Below, in pieces: positions 32,169 to 41,672 of a stretch of DNA of 51,341 nt. Location of the stretch: contig JAPOXW010000010.1 of assembly GCA_026706895.1 (NCBI GenBank), positions 1 to 51,341 of the forward strand, given 5' to 3'. Origin of the DNA: Gammaproteobacteria bacterium. Lineage in GTDB: Bacteria > Pseudomonadota > Gammaproteobacteria > Poriferisulfidales > Poriferisulfidaceae. Position numbers and translations under genes: made by a program. Numbering within the stretch: position 1 is the stretch's first letter; each line of letters opens with the position of its first letter. The notes under the pieces are model-generated. The model saw only the letters and a list, made by a program, of their open reading frames with translations, was not told the DNA's origin and ran no database searches.

Positions 32169-33149
32169 TCATTCATCGTCATTATCTAAATCGAAGATAT
32201 CCAACGTTTTGATACGTTCAGAAAAGGCGTTATGCATTTCGTTGAGGCGTTTGACAAGCCATTCATGCTGGCGTGGCCAGTCAGATTCGTCATCCGGATC
32301 AACTTCATTGAGGTAAATCGAAATCCGACAGTATTTACGTGTTGGTAGTTTCTCCCACTCCAATGAATAGCCCAGCTCTTCCTCGATTTGCTCTTTTTGT
32401 TGTTCTATAAGAGCAAAGAATTTTTTTTGCTCATCGCCAGAAATATACAGTTCTGCCCGAATTTGGTTTTTTTGACGCAGCATTACTGCACCTAGCACGA
32501 AGCCGCTGCGTCCTATCCCATAATTCATCCAAGGCTGAGGTTGTGGTTTGCGATTGCCTGAGATCGGTCCAGGGATGGAATCAAGTGCCGAATGAAATTT
32601 CTCCCAGTACTTTCTCTGTTTTATTTTTATCTCTGACAATCCACTGTCCGCAAAAGCACGAGCTGCTTGCCGAGACCAATCATTCGGTTTTGAAACAACA
32701 TTGAATTTTGGGGCAGCGAGTGAATCCTCAATTTGCCAAAGTTCTACCTCCAGCCCGAAAAAGCGGAAGTTTTCATCAGTAATTTTGTTCAGCCAATCAA
32801 GGGTCGCCCGATGCTCGTCCGTAAACTTTGCCGAGACCCAGACGATAGTAACAGCCTGTAAACCAGCGGCGTATGTAAGCAGTTGACCAAGGTGTGTGTG
32901 GTCGGTTCGCTCTAATTGGTTCTCGACCAACACCCAAGTATCCGTATTTATGTCTTTGCAGAGAATATCGGCTCGGAAAGGACCGACTACCTTTTCTTGT
33001 GCTTCAACTTCGAGATCTATTCCGAGTGTTTCTGCCAGCACTGCAATGTTTTCAGCATTAGCAAGCCACGGAGTAAAGTCTGTTGCTTCGTCGGCCCAAA
33101 TCTCTCGAAGATTGACACGCTTTAGGTGTCCGAGCGTTTGATTATTCAT
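32169..33149 (-). CDS. DUF4268 protein with a nuclease-like N-terminal domain
   Basis: The 326-residue protein has an N-terminal region that resembles PD-(D/E)XK nucleases. D61 is in FRADILCKD, then ENQ (77-79) is in WVLVENQLERTDH, and Q89 is in HLGQLLTYAAGL. The DUF4268 C-terminal part (about 170-315) follows. Such proteins are often scattered near mobile or defence genes. The gene is visibly more A/T-rich than both neighbours and has its own promoter, so transfer is likely. The function is unknown; nuclease activity is inferred only. Confidence 0.75.
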   Translation of the reverse strand: MNNQTLGHLKRVNLREIWADEATDFTPWLANAENIAVLAETLGIDLEVEAQEKVVGPFRADILCKDINTDTWVLVENQLERTDHTHLGQLLTYAAGLQAVTIVWVSAKFTDEHRATLDWLNKITDENFRFFGLEVELWQIEDSLAAPKFNVVSKPNDWSRQAARAFADSGLSEIKIKQRKYWEKFHSALDSIPGPISGNRKPQPQPWMNYGIGRSGFVLGAVMLRQKNQIRAELYISGDEQKKFFALIEQQKEQIEEELGYSLEWEKLPTRKYCRISIYLNEVDPDDESDWPRQHEWLVKRLNEMHNAFSERIKTLDIFDLDNDDE

Positions 33150-34929: not shown

Positions 34930-34987
34930 GCTCGTAAAAACCGGGGCGAACCGGGGCGCGTAGTATATCAGGGAGGGCATCGGGTTG

Positions 34988-35023
34988 GCGCAAATTGCGC
35001 AACCGGGCTGCTTTGCCTATGAT
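34988..35023 (+). promoter_or_regulatory. Promoter of the GPP34/cytochrome operon
   Basis: TTGCGC (34995-35000) and TATGAT (35018-35023) are separated by 17 bp. A perfect inverted repeat GCGCAA-A-TTGCGC (34988-35000) overlaps the -35 box and could be a regulator site. Transcription should start near 35030, giving a leader of about 12 bases; the G-rich stretch before 35031 may act as the ribosome site only if the start lies a little earlier. Confidence 0.55.
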
Positions 35024-35041
35024 GGGGGGAGTCGACCGGCC

Positions 35042-36235
35042 ATGACCCAGAATCCCGCTCCGACCCTTGCCGAAGACGTTGTCCTGCTGCTGCTGGACGA
35101 CCAGAGCGGTACCCTGCTGCCGGTCCAGGAAGCCGCTTTCAAATGCGCCCTGGCCGGTGCCACACTGATGGACCTGGCGTTCGCCTATCGGATCGACACC
35201 GACCTGCATTCCCTCATGGTCAGCGACCGCACGCCGGTCGGCGACCCCATGCTCGACCGGATCCTGAAGAGGATTTCGAACCACCCGGAAGTCTCGAATG
35301 CCCATGCGTGGGTTGAAATCCTGTCGTCCGAGGAGGCGGGCATCATCCGCGAGCAGGCCCTGGCCCGCCTCGTCGAACACGGCGTTCTGCAACGGCACAG
35401 GAAATTACCGGGACTGTTCCGGGCTCACCGCTACACCCGGGTCGACGGCGCCGTCGAACGCGAGCTCAAGGGGCACATCCGCGACATCCTGCACTCCGAC
35501 GACATCCCCGACCCCCGGGATGTCGCCTTGATCTGCCTAGTGGACGCCTGCAACATTCTTGCCGACATCTTCCCCCGGGAAGAAATCGAGCAAGTCGCTC
35601 CCCGAATCGAGCAATTCCACAGGATGGACCTGATCGGCCACGAAGTGACCGGCACGATCGACGAGGCGAGACGGGCCATTGTTCTCGCGGTCCGGACCCG
35701 GGCCGCACGGTTCGGAAAATGGCTCGCGGCCCTCTCCCTTGGCGGCGGCCTCGCGGCCGTCGCCACGCTCCTCGTCCCGCGCATCCCCATGCCGGACCGG
35801 TTCGGGCCCGGCCTGTTCGAACTTCTATGGTCCGACGAAACCTGGCAGCAATGGAGCGGCTACACCCTCCTGGGGCTCAGTCTCGCGGGGCTCCTGGTCG
35901 CCCTGCTCATGAAGACCCCGCTGCTGGTCCGGCGGAAAAGCCACGACTGGTGGCCGCTGATGCACGTCGGGTTCGGGGCCGGATGCGTGCTGGCCCTGTT
36001 CGCCCACACCGGCTTCCGGTTCGGCATAAACCTGAATGCGGCGCTCATGTGGAACTATCTGGCCCTGCTGATCTTCGGCGCACTGGTCGGGATTTCGATG
36101 CGCCGGACGGCCTGGCCCCCGGTAAACGCGGCCCTGAACCGGTTGCGCCGCTTCTCCATCAAGGCTCACCTCCTCGCGCTGTTGCCGCTGCCCGCCCTGC
36201 TGATCCTTCACCTGCTGATCGTCTACCTATACTGA
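35042..36235 (+). CDS. GPP34-domain protein fused to a probable two-heme b-type membrane cytochrome
   Basis: The 397-residue protein has two parts. Residues 1 to about 220 match the GPP34 (Golgi phosphoprotein 3) family, with LAEDVVLLLLDDQSGTLL, ALAGATLMDLAFAYRI and VGDPMLDRIL. In eukaryotes this fold binds a phosphoinositide head group; its bacterial role is unclear. Residues 225-397 hold about five helices. Two carry exact HX13H pairs: H308/H322 and H376/H390, the bis-histidine arrangement of a two-heme cytochrome b. The start follows a promoter, and the multiheme gene begins 12 bp after the stop. Electron transfer from quinol to the multiheme partner is inferred. The GPP34 match is by eye but has several motifs. 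Confidence 0.75.
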   Translation: MTQNPAPTLAEDVVLLLLDDQSGTLLPVQEAAFKCALAGATLMDLAFAYRIDTDLHSLMVSDRTPVGDPMLDRILKRISNHPEVSNAHAWVEILSSEEAGIIREQALARLVEHGVLQRHRKLPGLFRAHRYTRVDGAVERELKGHIRDILHSDDIPDPRDVALICLVDACNILADIFPREEIEQVAPRIEQFHRMDLIGHEVTGTIDEARRAIVLAVRTRAARFGKWLAALSLGGGLAAVATLLVPRIPMPDRFGPGLFELLWSDETWQQWSGYTLLGLSLAGLLVALLMKTPLLVRRKSHDWWPLMHVGFGAGCVLALFAHTGFRFGINLNAALMWNYLALLIFGALVGISMRRTAWPPVNAALNRLRRFSIKAHLLALLPLPALLILHLLIVYLY

Positions 36236-36247
36236 CCGAACAAGCCC

Positions 36248-37774
36248 GTGTCGCGAAACACCCTCCTCTGGATCCTGGGCATTGCAGGGACCTTGCTCGC
36301 CACAGCCGTGGCCGTGGCCTGGATGACCGTGGGCGGCGACCGGGGAATCCTCCTGCCCGGCAAAACCACCGATGCCCACCACCAGATCGAACTGGCCTGC
36401 GAGACCTGCCACGCCGCGGGGGCGTTCGCCAACGCAAAAAAAGCCGAAAAGGCACTGAACAAGGCGTGCCGGGGTTGCCACGAGGCGGAACTGAAGGCTG
36501 CCAAGGACAGTCACCCGCCCGGGAAATTCCGCAATCCGAGGATGGCCGCCTACTGGGAGAAGCTGGACGCGCGCCTCTGCACGGCCTGCCACGTCGAGCA
36601 CCGCCCCGAGACCACGAGGACCAGCGCGGTCACGACCCCCACGGATTTCTGCGTGGCCTGCCACTCCGAGGAGGAGCAGGACGTGCGCGTGAACCGGCCG
36701 AGCCACGCCAGCCTGGCCTTCGACACCTGCGCGTCTTCCGGCTGCCACAACTACCACGACAACCAGGCGCTCTATGCGGATTTCCTGGTCAGGCACGCGG
36801 ACCAGCCCTGGCTCGCCCCGGTGCCGATGCACCGATTCTCCGCGCAGGCCCAAACCCGGACCTTCCGGACGGAGGCCGCGCCCGGACGGGGCGATGCCGT
36901 GGCGCCCGAAAGTGCATTGCGGGATCCGGCCATCCTCGACGCATGGGCGGGATCCGGCCATGCGGCGGCGGGGGAGAATTGCGCGGCCTGCCACGCGCCC
37001 GCCGCAGCAAAAAGGGCCGGGCTGGCGGAAATCGAGGCACAGTGGGTCGAAGCGCCGGACATGGCGGTCTGCGAAGACTGCCACAGGTGGCAGACGAAGA
37101 CTTTCGCCCGGGGCCGGCACGGCATGCGCCAGCACCCCCGGGTCTCAAAACCCCGGAACCCTCGCCGCAGGCTCGCGGCGCTCGGGCTCGGAGGCTGGCT
37201 TCCCGAAGCTGCCGTGGCCCGGTTCACGGACCCCGCTCCACCCCGGCGCATGACGGTCGGCGAGGCGCGCCTGCCCATGCATGCCGAGACCGCCCACCTG
37301 AGCCTCCACTGCGGCTCCTGCCACCGGCCGCACGCGGTCGACACCGAAGCCGCCGCAGTCGAAGCCTGCGCGTCCTGCCACAATGACCCGCATACCCAAG
37401 CCTACTTCGGAAGTCCCCACCACGCGCTTTGGGAAGCCGAGGTTGCGGGCGAAGCCGAACCCGGGACCGGAGTGAGTTGCGCGACCTGCCATCTGGAGAA
37501 AGTCGAACGCCGCGGGAACATCGCCGTCAATCACAACCAGAACGACCTTCTGAGACCGAACTCGAAGATGATCCGCCCCGTATGCCTGGACTGCCACGGC
37601 CTGGGTTTTTCGCTGGATGCCCTGGCCGACCCCGGACTGATCGCCCGGAATTTCAAGGGGAAACCGGAAATCCAGGTCGAAAGCATGGCATGGGCAATCC
37701 GGCGCACGGTGGAGAAGCCGGAGGAGGAAGGTGCCGGATCCCGCGTACAATCACCCTGGAGGAACAGCCCATGA
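36248..37774 (+). CDS. Membrane-anchored multiheme c-type cytochrome (up to 11 hemes)
   Basis: The 508-residue protein (GTG start) has one N-terminal membrane helix (about 5-27) and a long periplasmic part. Ten CXXCH motifs start at C51, C74, C111, C135, C245, C275, C355, C374, C411 and C446, and one CX4CH (CASSGCH) starts at C161. The C-terminal half has a distinctive conserved look: HALWEAEVAGEAEPGTG, NDLLRPNSKMIRPVC and GLGFSLDALADP. I recall this from other unnamed multiheme cytochromes but know no function. Linked to the HX13H membrane protein upstream and the one-heme protein downstream, it probably relays electrons through the periplasm. The stop overlaps the next start by 4 bp. Confidence 0.88.
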   Translation: MSRNTLLWILGIAGTLLATAVAVAWMTVGGDRGILLPGKTTDAHHQIELACETCHAAGAFANAKKAEKALNKACRGCHEAELKAAKDSHPPGKFRNPRMAAYWEKLDARLCTACHVEHRPETTRTSAVTTPTDFCVACHSEEEQDVRVNRPSHASLAFDTCASSGCHNYHDNQALYADFLVRHADQPWLAPVPMHRFSAQAQTRTFRTEAAPGRGDAVAPESALRDPAILDAWAGSGHAAAGENCAACHAPAAAKRAGLAEIEAQWVEAPDMAVCEDCHRWQTKTFARGRHGMRQHPRVSKPRNPRRRLAALGLGGWLPEAAVARFTDPAPPRRMTVGEARLPMHAETAHLSLHCGSCHRPHAVDTEAAAVEACASCHNDPHTQAYFGSPHHALWEAEVAGEAEPGTGVSCATCHLEKVERRGNIAVNHNQNDLLRPNSKMIRPVCLDCHGLGFSLDALADPGLIARNFKGKPEIQVESMAWAIRRTVEKPEEEGAGSRVQSPWRNSP

Positions 37775-38343
37775 ACAGAAATCTATTCAGGCAGACGGGC
37801 ATCACGTGCTGCGTGGTGGTCGCTCTGGCGGGCACCGGGAGCGCGGCCGGAGAGGGCGTGCCATACCGGCAGGTCGCGGACATGCTGTACACCGTGGTGT
37901 CGGCGGACCGGGAAGTCTATACGCACATGGTGGTCCAGCGCCTCGTGGAAGACCAGCAGGTCATTTCCGCCTCGGAGCATTTCGAGGATGACGCGGCATT
38001 GCCCCTGCCGGCGCAGATGTTCCGCTTCGGCGCGGAAAAGGTGGAAGAACAGACCGAGGACTTCTCCTATGCCCTGCTGTCGCTGTGGCCGATCAACAAG
38101 CAGAACGGTCCGGCCACGGAACTGGAGAGGGAAGGCCTCGAGCGGGTCGCCGAGAATCCGGAAGAAAATTTCTACGGCGAAGAGGAACTCGCCGGACAAC
38201 GTTATTTCGCTGCCGTCTACCCGGACATCGCGGTCGCCGAAGCCTGTGCCAGTTGCCACAACAACCACAAGGATTCCCCACGCACCGACATCGAGGTCGG
38301 CGACGTGCTCGGCGGCGTGGTCATCCGCCTCCCGATGCTCTGA
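37771..38343 (+). CDS. Secreted one-heme protein, Tll0287/DUF3365-like
   Basis: The 190-residue protein has a signal peptide (about 1-26, ending GSAAG) and a single heme c site, CASCHNNHKDSPR, at about 160. The C-terminal VGDVLGGVVIRLPM is the typical end of the Tll0287-like (DUF3365) heme domain, which is often used as a PAS-like redox sensor or a small electron carrier. ATG 37771 overlaps the multiheme stop, with GGAGG about 8 bp upstream. It is the third gene of the operon and could be the final electron acceptor or a redox sensor. Confidence 0.82.
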   Translation: MNRNLFRQTGITCCVVVALAGTGSAAGEGVPYRQVADMLYTVVSADREVYTHMVVQRLVEDQQVISASEHFEDDAALPLPAQMFRFGAEKVEEQTEDFSYALLSLWPINKQNGPATELEREGLERVAENPEENFYGEEELAGQRYFAAVYPDIAVAEACASCHNNHKDSPRTDIEVGDVLGGVVIRLPML

Positions 38344-41147: not shown

Positions 41148-41672
41148 ATGGGAACCTCCAACTTGACCCCCGAAGAGACCCCCTCTCAGTCACGAATTCC
41201 TTCTGCCCCGGCCAAACCGGCGGGCGGGCAAGTGAAAGAGAAACATCCCATGTTCGATACGCTCCAGGTCACCAAGGAACTGCGGGAATCCGGATTTGCC
41301 GAACCTCAGGCCGAGGCAATTGTCGTTGCTTTCGGGGCCATTGCCGGGAACGTCGCGACCAAGGATGATCTGGAGGGGTTCGCGACCAAGGATGATCTGG
41401 AGGGGTTCGCGACCAAGGGCGATCTGGAGAGGTTCGCGACCAAGGATGACCTGAAGGCCCTGGAAGCGAAGATGGTGACCAAGGACGACCTGAAGGGGTT
41501 CGCGACCAAGGACGATCTGAAGCATTTTGTGACGGAGGCCAGCATGCTCAAGGCTCTCGGTGAATTTTCCGAGAGGATGCACCGTTCTCTCCTGCAGGTC
41601 GCAATGGGAACTGTCATGGCCAACATCGCCATGGTGACCGCGATCTTCATGGTTGCGAAGTACCTGTTCTAG
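41148..41672 (+). CDS. Coiled-coil membrane protein, DUF1640-like, with TKDDL repeats
   Basis: The 174-residue protein has a helical head, LQVTKELRESGFAEPQAEAI. It continues with six imperfect copies of ATKDDLEGF forming a coiled coil, and ends with a single C-terminal membrane helix (about 151-172). Proteins of this build (DUF1640/CCDC90 type) are common near mobile or accessory genes; their function in bacteria is unclear. ATG 41148 has a good AGGAG 9 bp upstream. An internal ATG at 41250 gives the more usual N-terminus, so both starts are possible. Confidence 0.75.
   Translation: MGTSNLTPEETPSQSRIPSAPAKPAGGQVKEKHPMFDTLQVTKELRESGFAEPQAEAIVVAFGAIAGNVATKDDLEGFATKDDLEGFATKGDLERFATKDDLKALEAKMVTKDDLKGFATKDDLKHFVTEASMLKALGEFSERMHRSLLQVAMGTVMANIAMVTAIFMVAKYLF
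41355..41528 (+). repeat. In-frame 27-bp tandem repeats in the coiled-coil gene
   Basis: Units of 27 bp encode ATKDDLEGF. The first two (from 41355 and 41382) are identical over at least 26 bases; the third and fourth differ by few bases. A seven-residue interruption (ALEAKMV) precedes two more units. Near-identity of the first copies points to recent expansion. Confidence 0.85.

Follow-up and report, generated by a model that had tools for sequence, protein, structure and literature searches.

A GPP34 domain in place of an FAD/[2Fe-2S] head on a putative multiheme membrane conduit of a gammaproteobacterium

The stretch of DNA analyzed here (51,341 nucleotides of a gammaproteobacterial genome, hereafter the window) carries three genes separated by a 12-bp gap and a 4-bp overlap, a layout that had been described correctly in the initial annotation (Table 1). 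Chance neighborhood of the three can be ruled out, as their order is conserved. The promoter claimed to precede gene 1 was not recovered by a promoter scan; the TTGCGC-N17-TATGAT stretch located there, which another species of the genus (G002, record JAPPLD010000003.1) has retained, matches about 8 of the 12 consensus positions. A near-palindrome upstream of gene 1 (TTGGCGCAAATTGCGCAA, window positions 34985-35002), likewise kept in G002, is a possible operator candidate. The bacterium itself is probably a sponge symbiont.

Table 1. Features of the GPP34-type operon and of the segment that contains it (positions in the window).
Feature	Positions	Strand	Remarks
Whole inserted segment	34973..38384	+	Found in the window genome and in G002; missing between rpmE and hemW of G001 and G004
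Gene 1, 397 aa, GPP34 joined to a membrane domain of five helices, for which two b hemes are predicted	35042..36235	+	
GPP34-coding region of gene 1	35066..35665	+	Profile, PDB similarity, predicted fold
Part of gene 1 encoding the b-type membrane domain	35693..36232	+	Homology with the C-terminal part of NirB-like FAD proteins
Gene 2, membrane-anchored 11-heme cytochrome c, 10 CXXCH and one CX4CH	36248..37774	+	
Gene 3, exported Tll0287-like/sCache_heme one-heme protein without conserved axial cysteine	37771..38343	+	

GPP34 is a Golgi lipid and cargo adaptor domain known from animals and yeast. Its presence at the N-terminus of gene 1, proposed earlier together with a profile search as the appropriate check, was confirmed by Pfam PF05719 (residues 9-208, E 5e-42), with a score of 144.6 bits against a curated cut-off of 29.1 bits. 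The domain also matched GOLPH3 in the PDB (E 4.6e-5), and a Foldseek search with its AlphaFold model returned yeast Vps74 (2zih; E 6e-6, probability 1.00) as the sole significant match. For modeling, the GPP34 and the membrane domain were aligned separately; in a mixed alignment, MAFFT laid rows of the membrane domain on GPP34. The initial suggestion that the domain might sense or grip the cytoplasmic membrane face is a conjecture. When the residues that we take to line the PI4P pocket of the eukaryotic members were mapped via the GOLPH3 alignment, about one of four contacts appeared to be kept in gene 1. No redox cofactor is visible in the domain, which might bind a cofactor that is not recognized as such, or be regulatory only.

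The two HX13H pairs reported for the second half of gene 1 (H308/H322 and H376/H390) proved exact, and each of the four histidines is conserved without exception in the 24 homologues, which supports, on the grounds of sequence conservation, the predicted bis-histidine layout for two hemes. Five helices are predicted for the membrane domain. The distribution of positive charges in its loops would place the N-terminal GPP34 domain in the cytoplasm, with the first histidine of each pair (H308, H376) toward the cytoplasmic side and the second (H322, H390) toward the periplasmic side. Neither a Pfam cytochrome family nor any PDB entry matched the domain significantly, and Foldseek gave no significant match for the model of the membrane half; prokaryotic cytochrome b561 (PF01292) remained under the cut-off (E 0.1 to 0.67). 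No quinone site was recognizable.

Gene 2 contains 10 CXXCH motifs and one CX4CH, as annotated, and the count is the same in all 25 full-length cytochromes of this operon family. The protein has an N-terminal anchor. Eleven histidines outside the heme motifs, one per heme, are invariant in 25 of 25 cytochromes, a pattern that suggests that all hemes are bis-histidine ligated and that the protein conducts electrons rather than catalyzes a reaction. The Tll0287-like nature of gene 3 was likewise substantiated (PF11845, E 2.9e-20, one CXXCH). This motif is kept in 25 of 25 members of the family, and among these 25 homologues no conserved cysteine was found beyond it. Proteins with sCache_heme domains comprise an NO-binding type without, and a tested redox type with, an axial cysteine; redox behavior was found for the single stand-alone protein tested (PMC12889525).

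When gene 1 was used as the query, its membrane half was found at the C-terminus of far longer proteins. These are NirB-like FAD proteins, composed of Pyr_redox_2 and [2Fe-2S] Fer2_BFD domains, and within NCBIfam they match the N-terminal part of NirB best. Among 368 sampled gammaproteobacterial genomes, 26 matched the membrane domain strongly, weak matches (below 1e-8) being counted apart. At 21 loci lacking GPP34, the operon is complete and consists of the FAD-BFD-membrane protein, an 11-heme cytochrome with the same 10 CXXCH and one CX4CH, and a Tll0287-like protein; it is referred to here as the parent operon. Two further loci (L084 and L096), both near a contig end, contain the genes for the cytochrome and the Tll0287-like protein next to a head that was not resolved, and at L080, just a short piece of the cytochrome is present. 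No description of the parent operon was found in the literature searched. The initial interpretation, which named no described complex of this composition, missed the widespread parent operon, in which NirB-like FAD and [2Fe-2S] domains occupy the place of GPP34.

Within one genus, just two of the six genomes, namely, the window genome and G002, have the GPP34 form, which was found in none of the 20 genomes of the order besides these two. Regarding the occurrence of the three genes together elsewhere, which had been named as a test of the proposal, the GPP34 form is therefore confined to one further species of the genus, whereas the rest of the operon recurs in many genomes. Related membrane domains carry other heads as well. 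At L111, from another class of the phylum, a BFD and FNR-type FAD head is combined with a multiheme partner; at L094 (6833-9424), an 863-aa protein contains two cNMP-binding domains, BFD, and FNR-type FAD/NAD domains in front of the related membrane domain and has neither an 11-heme cytochrome nor a Tll0287-like protein encoded next to it. Such variety shows the head to be a swappable part. In the cytochrome tree (midpoint root, no outgroup), the GPP34 form fell among the FAD forms with moderate support; it did so in the membrane-domain tree (one distant outgroup) too, at another position and with weak support. The branch leading to it is long. That the exchange ran from FAD/BFD to GPP34 is suggested mainly by the distribution of the forms. 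The window assembly also contains a complete FAD-type 11-heme operon on a contig of 5.7 kb (L027, G000:C31), which could be misbinned.

The operon is located between rpmE and hemW, and at the same place in G002. It is missing in the relatives G001 and G004, in which about 23 and 19 bp, respectively, separate the two genes. In the flanking stretches, the window genome, G001, and G002 stand at much the same distance from one another (92-95%), which, together with the presence or absence of the operon, points to its recent gain or loss. Nearby dsbD and hemW had been taken as a sign of heavy cytochrome production; this notion was not supported, and both were rejected as functional partners, as they occupy the same place in relatives devoid of the operon. 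Two other stretches of the window also vary among these genomes. The one at 32169-33149, with a 326-aa gene that appears DUF4268-like by eye, lacks a counterpart there in G001, G002, and G004 and is, judged from this sequence comparison, apparently another recent insertion or loss. The other, at 41148-41672, contains a gene with repeated TKDDLEGFA-type units and is missing in G001 and G002 and partly present in G004. Between the window copy and that of G002, dN/dS of the three genes ranges from 0.17 to 0.27, that is, they are under purifying selection. The value is 0.19 for the GPP34 half and the membrane half of gene 1 alike, which indicates that the fusion is being maintained. An assembly artifact as the source of the fusion is ruled out by its occurrence in two separate assemblies. 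The three-gene operon is real, conserved, and under selection, and it belongs to an apparently undescribed family of putative conduits.

The neighborhood of the parent operon points to nitrate or NO metabolism: a globin gene is found at 15, an ANTAR regulator at 10, and NrtAB at 8 of 23 parent loci. At least one of globin, ANTAR, NrtAB, or NirB occurs at 20 of 23 parent loci and at none of 13 control loci, the latter being those fetched for GPP34 and not a random draw. No nitrate-transport, globin, or ANTAR genes are present in the window, and no match to globin was obtained in the window genome, in which the only NIR_SIR matches are ones resembling DsrA and DsrB. The DsrA- and DsrB-like genes, which have a DsrE-family neighbor (L116, G000:C9), suggest that the host is a sulfur oxidizer. 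A molybdopterin protein is also encoded in the host genome.

GPP34 itself is rare in the class, exceeding the cut-off in 7 of 368 gammaproteobacterial genomes. Beside a stand-alone form, it was encountered in bacteria as the N-terminal part of cytochrome P450s in several genomes of the genus of the window (L105:6183-8213, L106:7309-9381, L006, L007, and L012) and, in the gammaproteobacterial genomes G036 and G330, of MFS transporters (L098:5607-7514, L109:6462-8327, and L099:5132-7030). Its recurrence as an N-terminal module favors a general function, be it attachment to membranes or the docking of partners. No paper on the role of GPP34 in bacteria was found, and the literature matches mostly concerned the unrelated insecticidal protein Gpp34.

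The interpretation we favor, at a probability of about 0.58, is that the operon encodes a membrane-to-periplasm electron conduit in which a non-redox GPP34 docking head has taken the place of the NAD(P)H entry. Electrons would pass from the two b hemes of the membrane domain to the eleven bis-histidine c hemes and from there to the single Tll0287-like c heme in the periplasm. In the parent operon, the route would lead from NAD(P)H via the NirB-like FAD domain and the [2Fe-2S] BFD domain into the membrane conduit; the window operon would be a derived form in which GPP34 stands in place of this FAD/BFD input module and acts as a head that docks to the membrane surface or to a partner. Since no redox cofactor is visible in GPP34, electrons would most likely reach the b hemes from the quinol pool, or from a separate reductase docking at the cytoplasmic face. 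From the original proposal of a quinol-to-periplasm conduit, the path from membrane to periplasm is retained as the likely role; the NirB-like FAD and [2Fe-2S] head of the parent form makes NAD(P)H the likely ancestral donor, and quinol is a presumed one.

Feeding by NAD(P)H might also have been kept, in two pieces, if GPP34 docks proteins and in this way brings in a cytoplasmic reductase or partner enzyme encoded apart from it. The parent head is of the NAD(P)H dehydrogenase type, and the position of GPP34 on P450s in the same genomes and on MFS transporters elsewhere suggests a shared docking role. However, no reductase gene lies in or adjoins the window operon, and the occurrence on transporters favors membrane attachment or regulation over an electron partner; we regard this arrangement as unlikely. 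A choice of acceptor compatible with the favored conduit is the reduction or scavenging of periplasmic nitric oxide or nitrite, with the Tll0287-like heme as the catalytic end. The neighbors of the parent loci, set against the controls, speak for it, as does the lack of a conserved axial cysteine in gene 3, which resembles the NO-binding sCache_heme type (PMC12889525), and a flavoprotein with a single-domain globin is known as an NO-detoxification pair within a nitrate assimilation cluster, Flp-Bjgb of Bradyrhizobium (PMC4724949). The window operon, however, lies outside such clusters in a genome with no globin match and with solely DsrA/DsrB-like NIR_SIR matches, and the stand-alone sCache_heme protein that was tested acted as a redox protein (PMC12889525), and we consider this acceptor less likely than not.

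Electrons could also flow inward, from periplasmic sulfur or nitrogen compounds via first the c and then the b hemes to the quinone pool. Such a reversal would go well with the loss of the NAD(P)H head, and the DsrA/DsrB-like proteins with their DsrE-family neighbor are encoded as in sulfur oxidizers, but all homologues with a recognizable redox head look built for outward feeding from NAD(P)H, and no periplasmic sulfur gene adjoins the operon, rendering this direction rather improbable. Finally, the GPP34 form could be a degenerate copy that lost its input head, the fusion being devoid of function, a notion to which the variable presence of the operon among species of about 93-94% identity and the long branch lend themselves. 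Purifying selection on every part and the retention of all heme ligands make it highly improbable.

The operon provides a concrete setting for asking what the job of GPP34 in bacteria is. Tentatively, and at somewhat less than even odds, we propose that bacteria employ it as a plug-in module by which membrane redox enzymes and transporters are attached or regulated, and that it has here replaced the NAD(P)H-oxidizing head of an apparently undescribed 11-heme transmembrane conduit, which is now quinol-fed or partner-fed. The natural domain swap separates the conduit from its input head and shows an unexpected rewiring of bacterial electron-transfer parts. The parent operon, conserved and apparently undescribed, may offer electrons from NAD(P)H a path across the membrane via about 14 hemes.

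Among known systems, GOLPH3 and yeast Vps74 have sequence family and fold in common with the N-terminus of gene 1, but these solved eukaryotic members are soluble Golgi adaptors, whereas GPP34 of the window is fused to a redox membrane protein. Domains of the cytochrome b561/ferric reductase type resemble gene 1 in having two HX13H pairs on two helices, with two b hemes expected; gene 1, in contrast, has five predicted helices and lacks a significant Pfam or PDB match. Stand-alone sCache_heme/Tll0287 proteins share the family and the one c heme with gene 3, which differs from the tested redox type in lacking the axial cysteine and in being part of a membrane conduit operon (PMC12889525). Flp-Bjgb, as a flavoprotein and globin in a nitrate assimilation cluster, resembles the neighborhood of the parent operon (PMC4724949); its description includes neither an 11-heme cytochrome nor a membrane domain, and both flavoprotein and globin are absent from the window operon. 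The parent operon itself shares the four invariant membrane histidines, the 11-heme motif count, the Tll0287-like protein, and the gene order with the window operon, but has FAD and [2Fe-2S] domains and usually a nitrate-cluster setting where the window operon has GPP34 and lies outside nitrate gene clusters.
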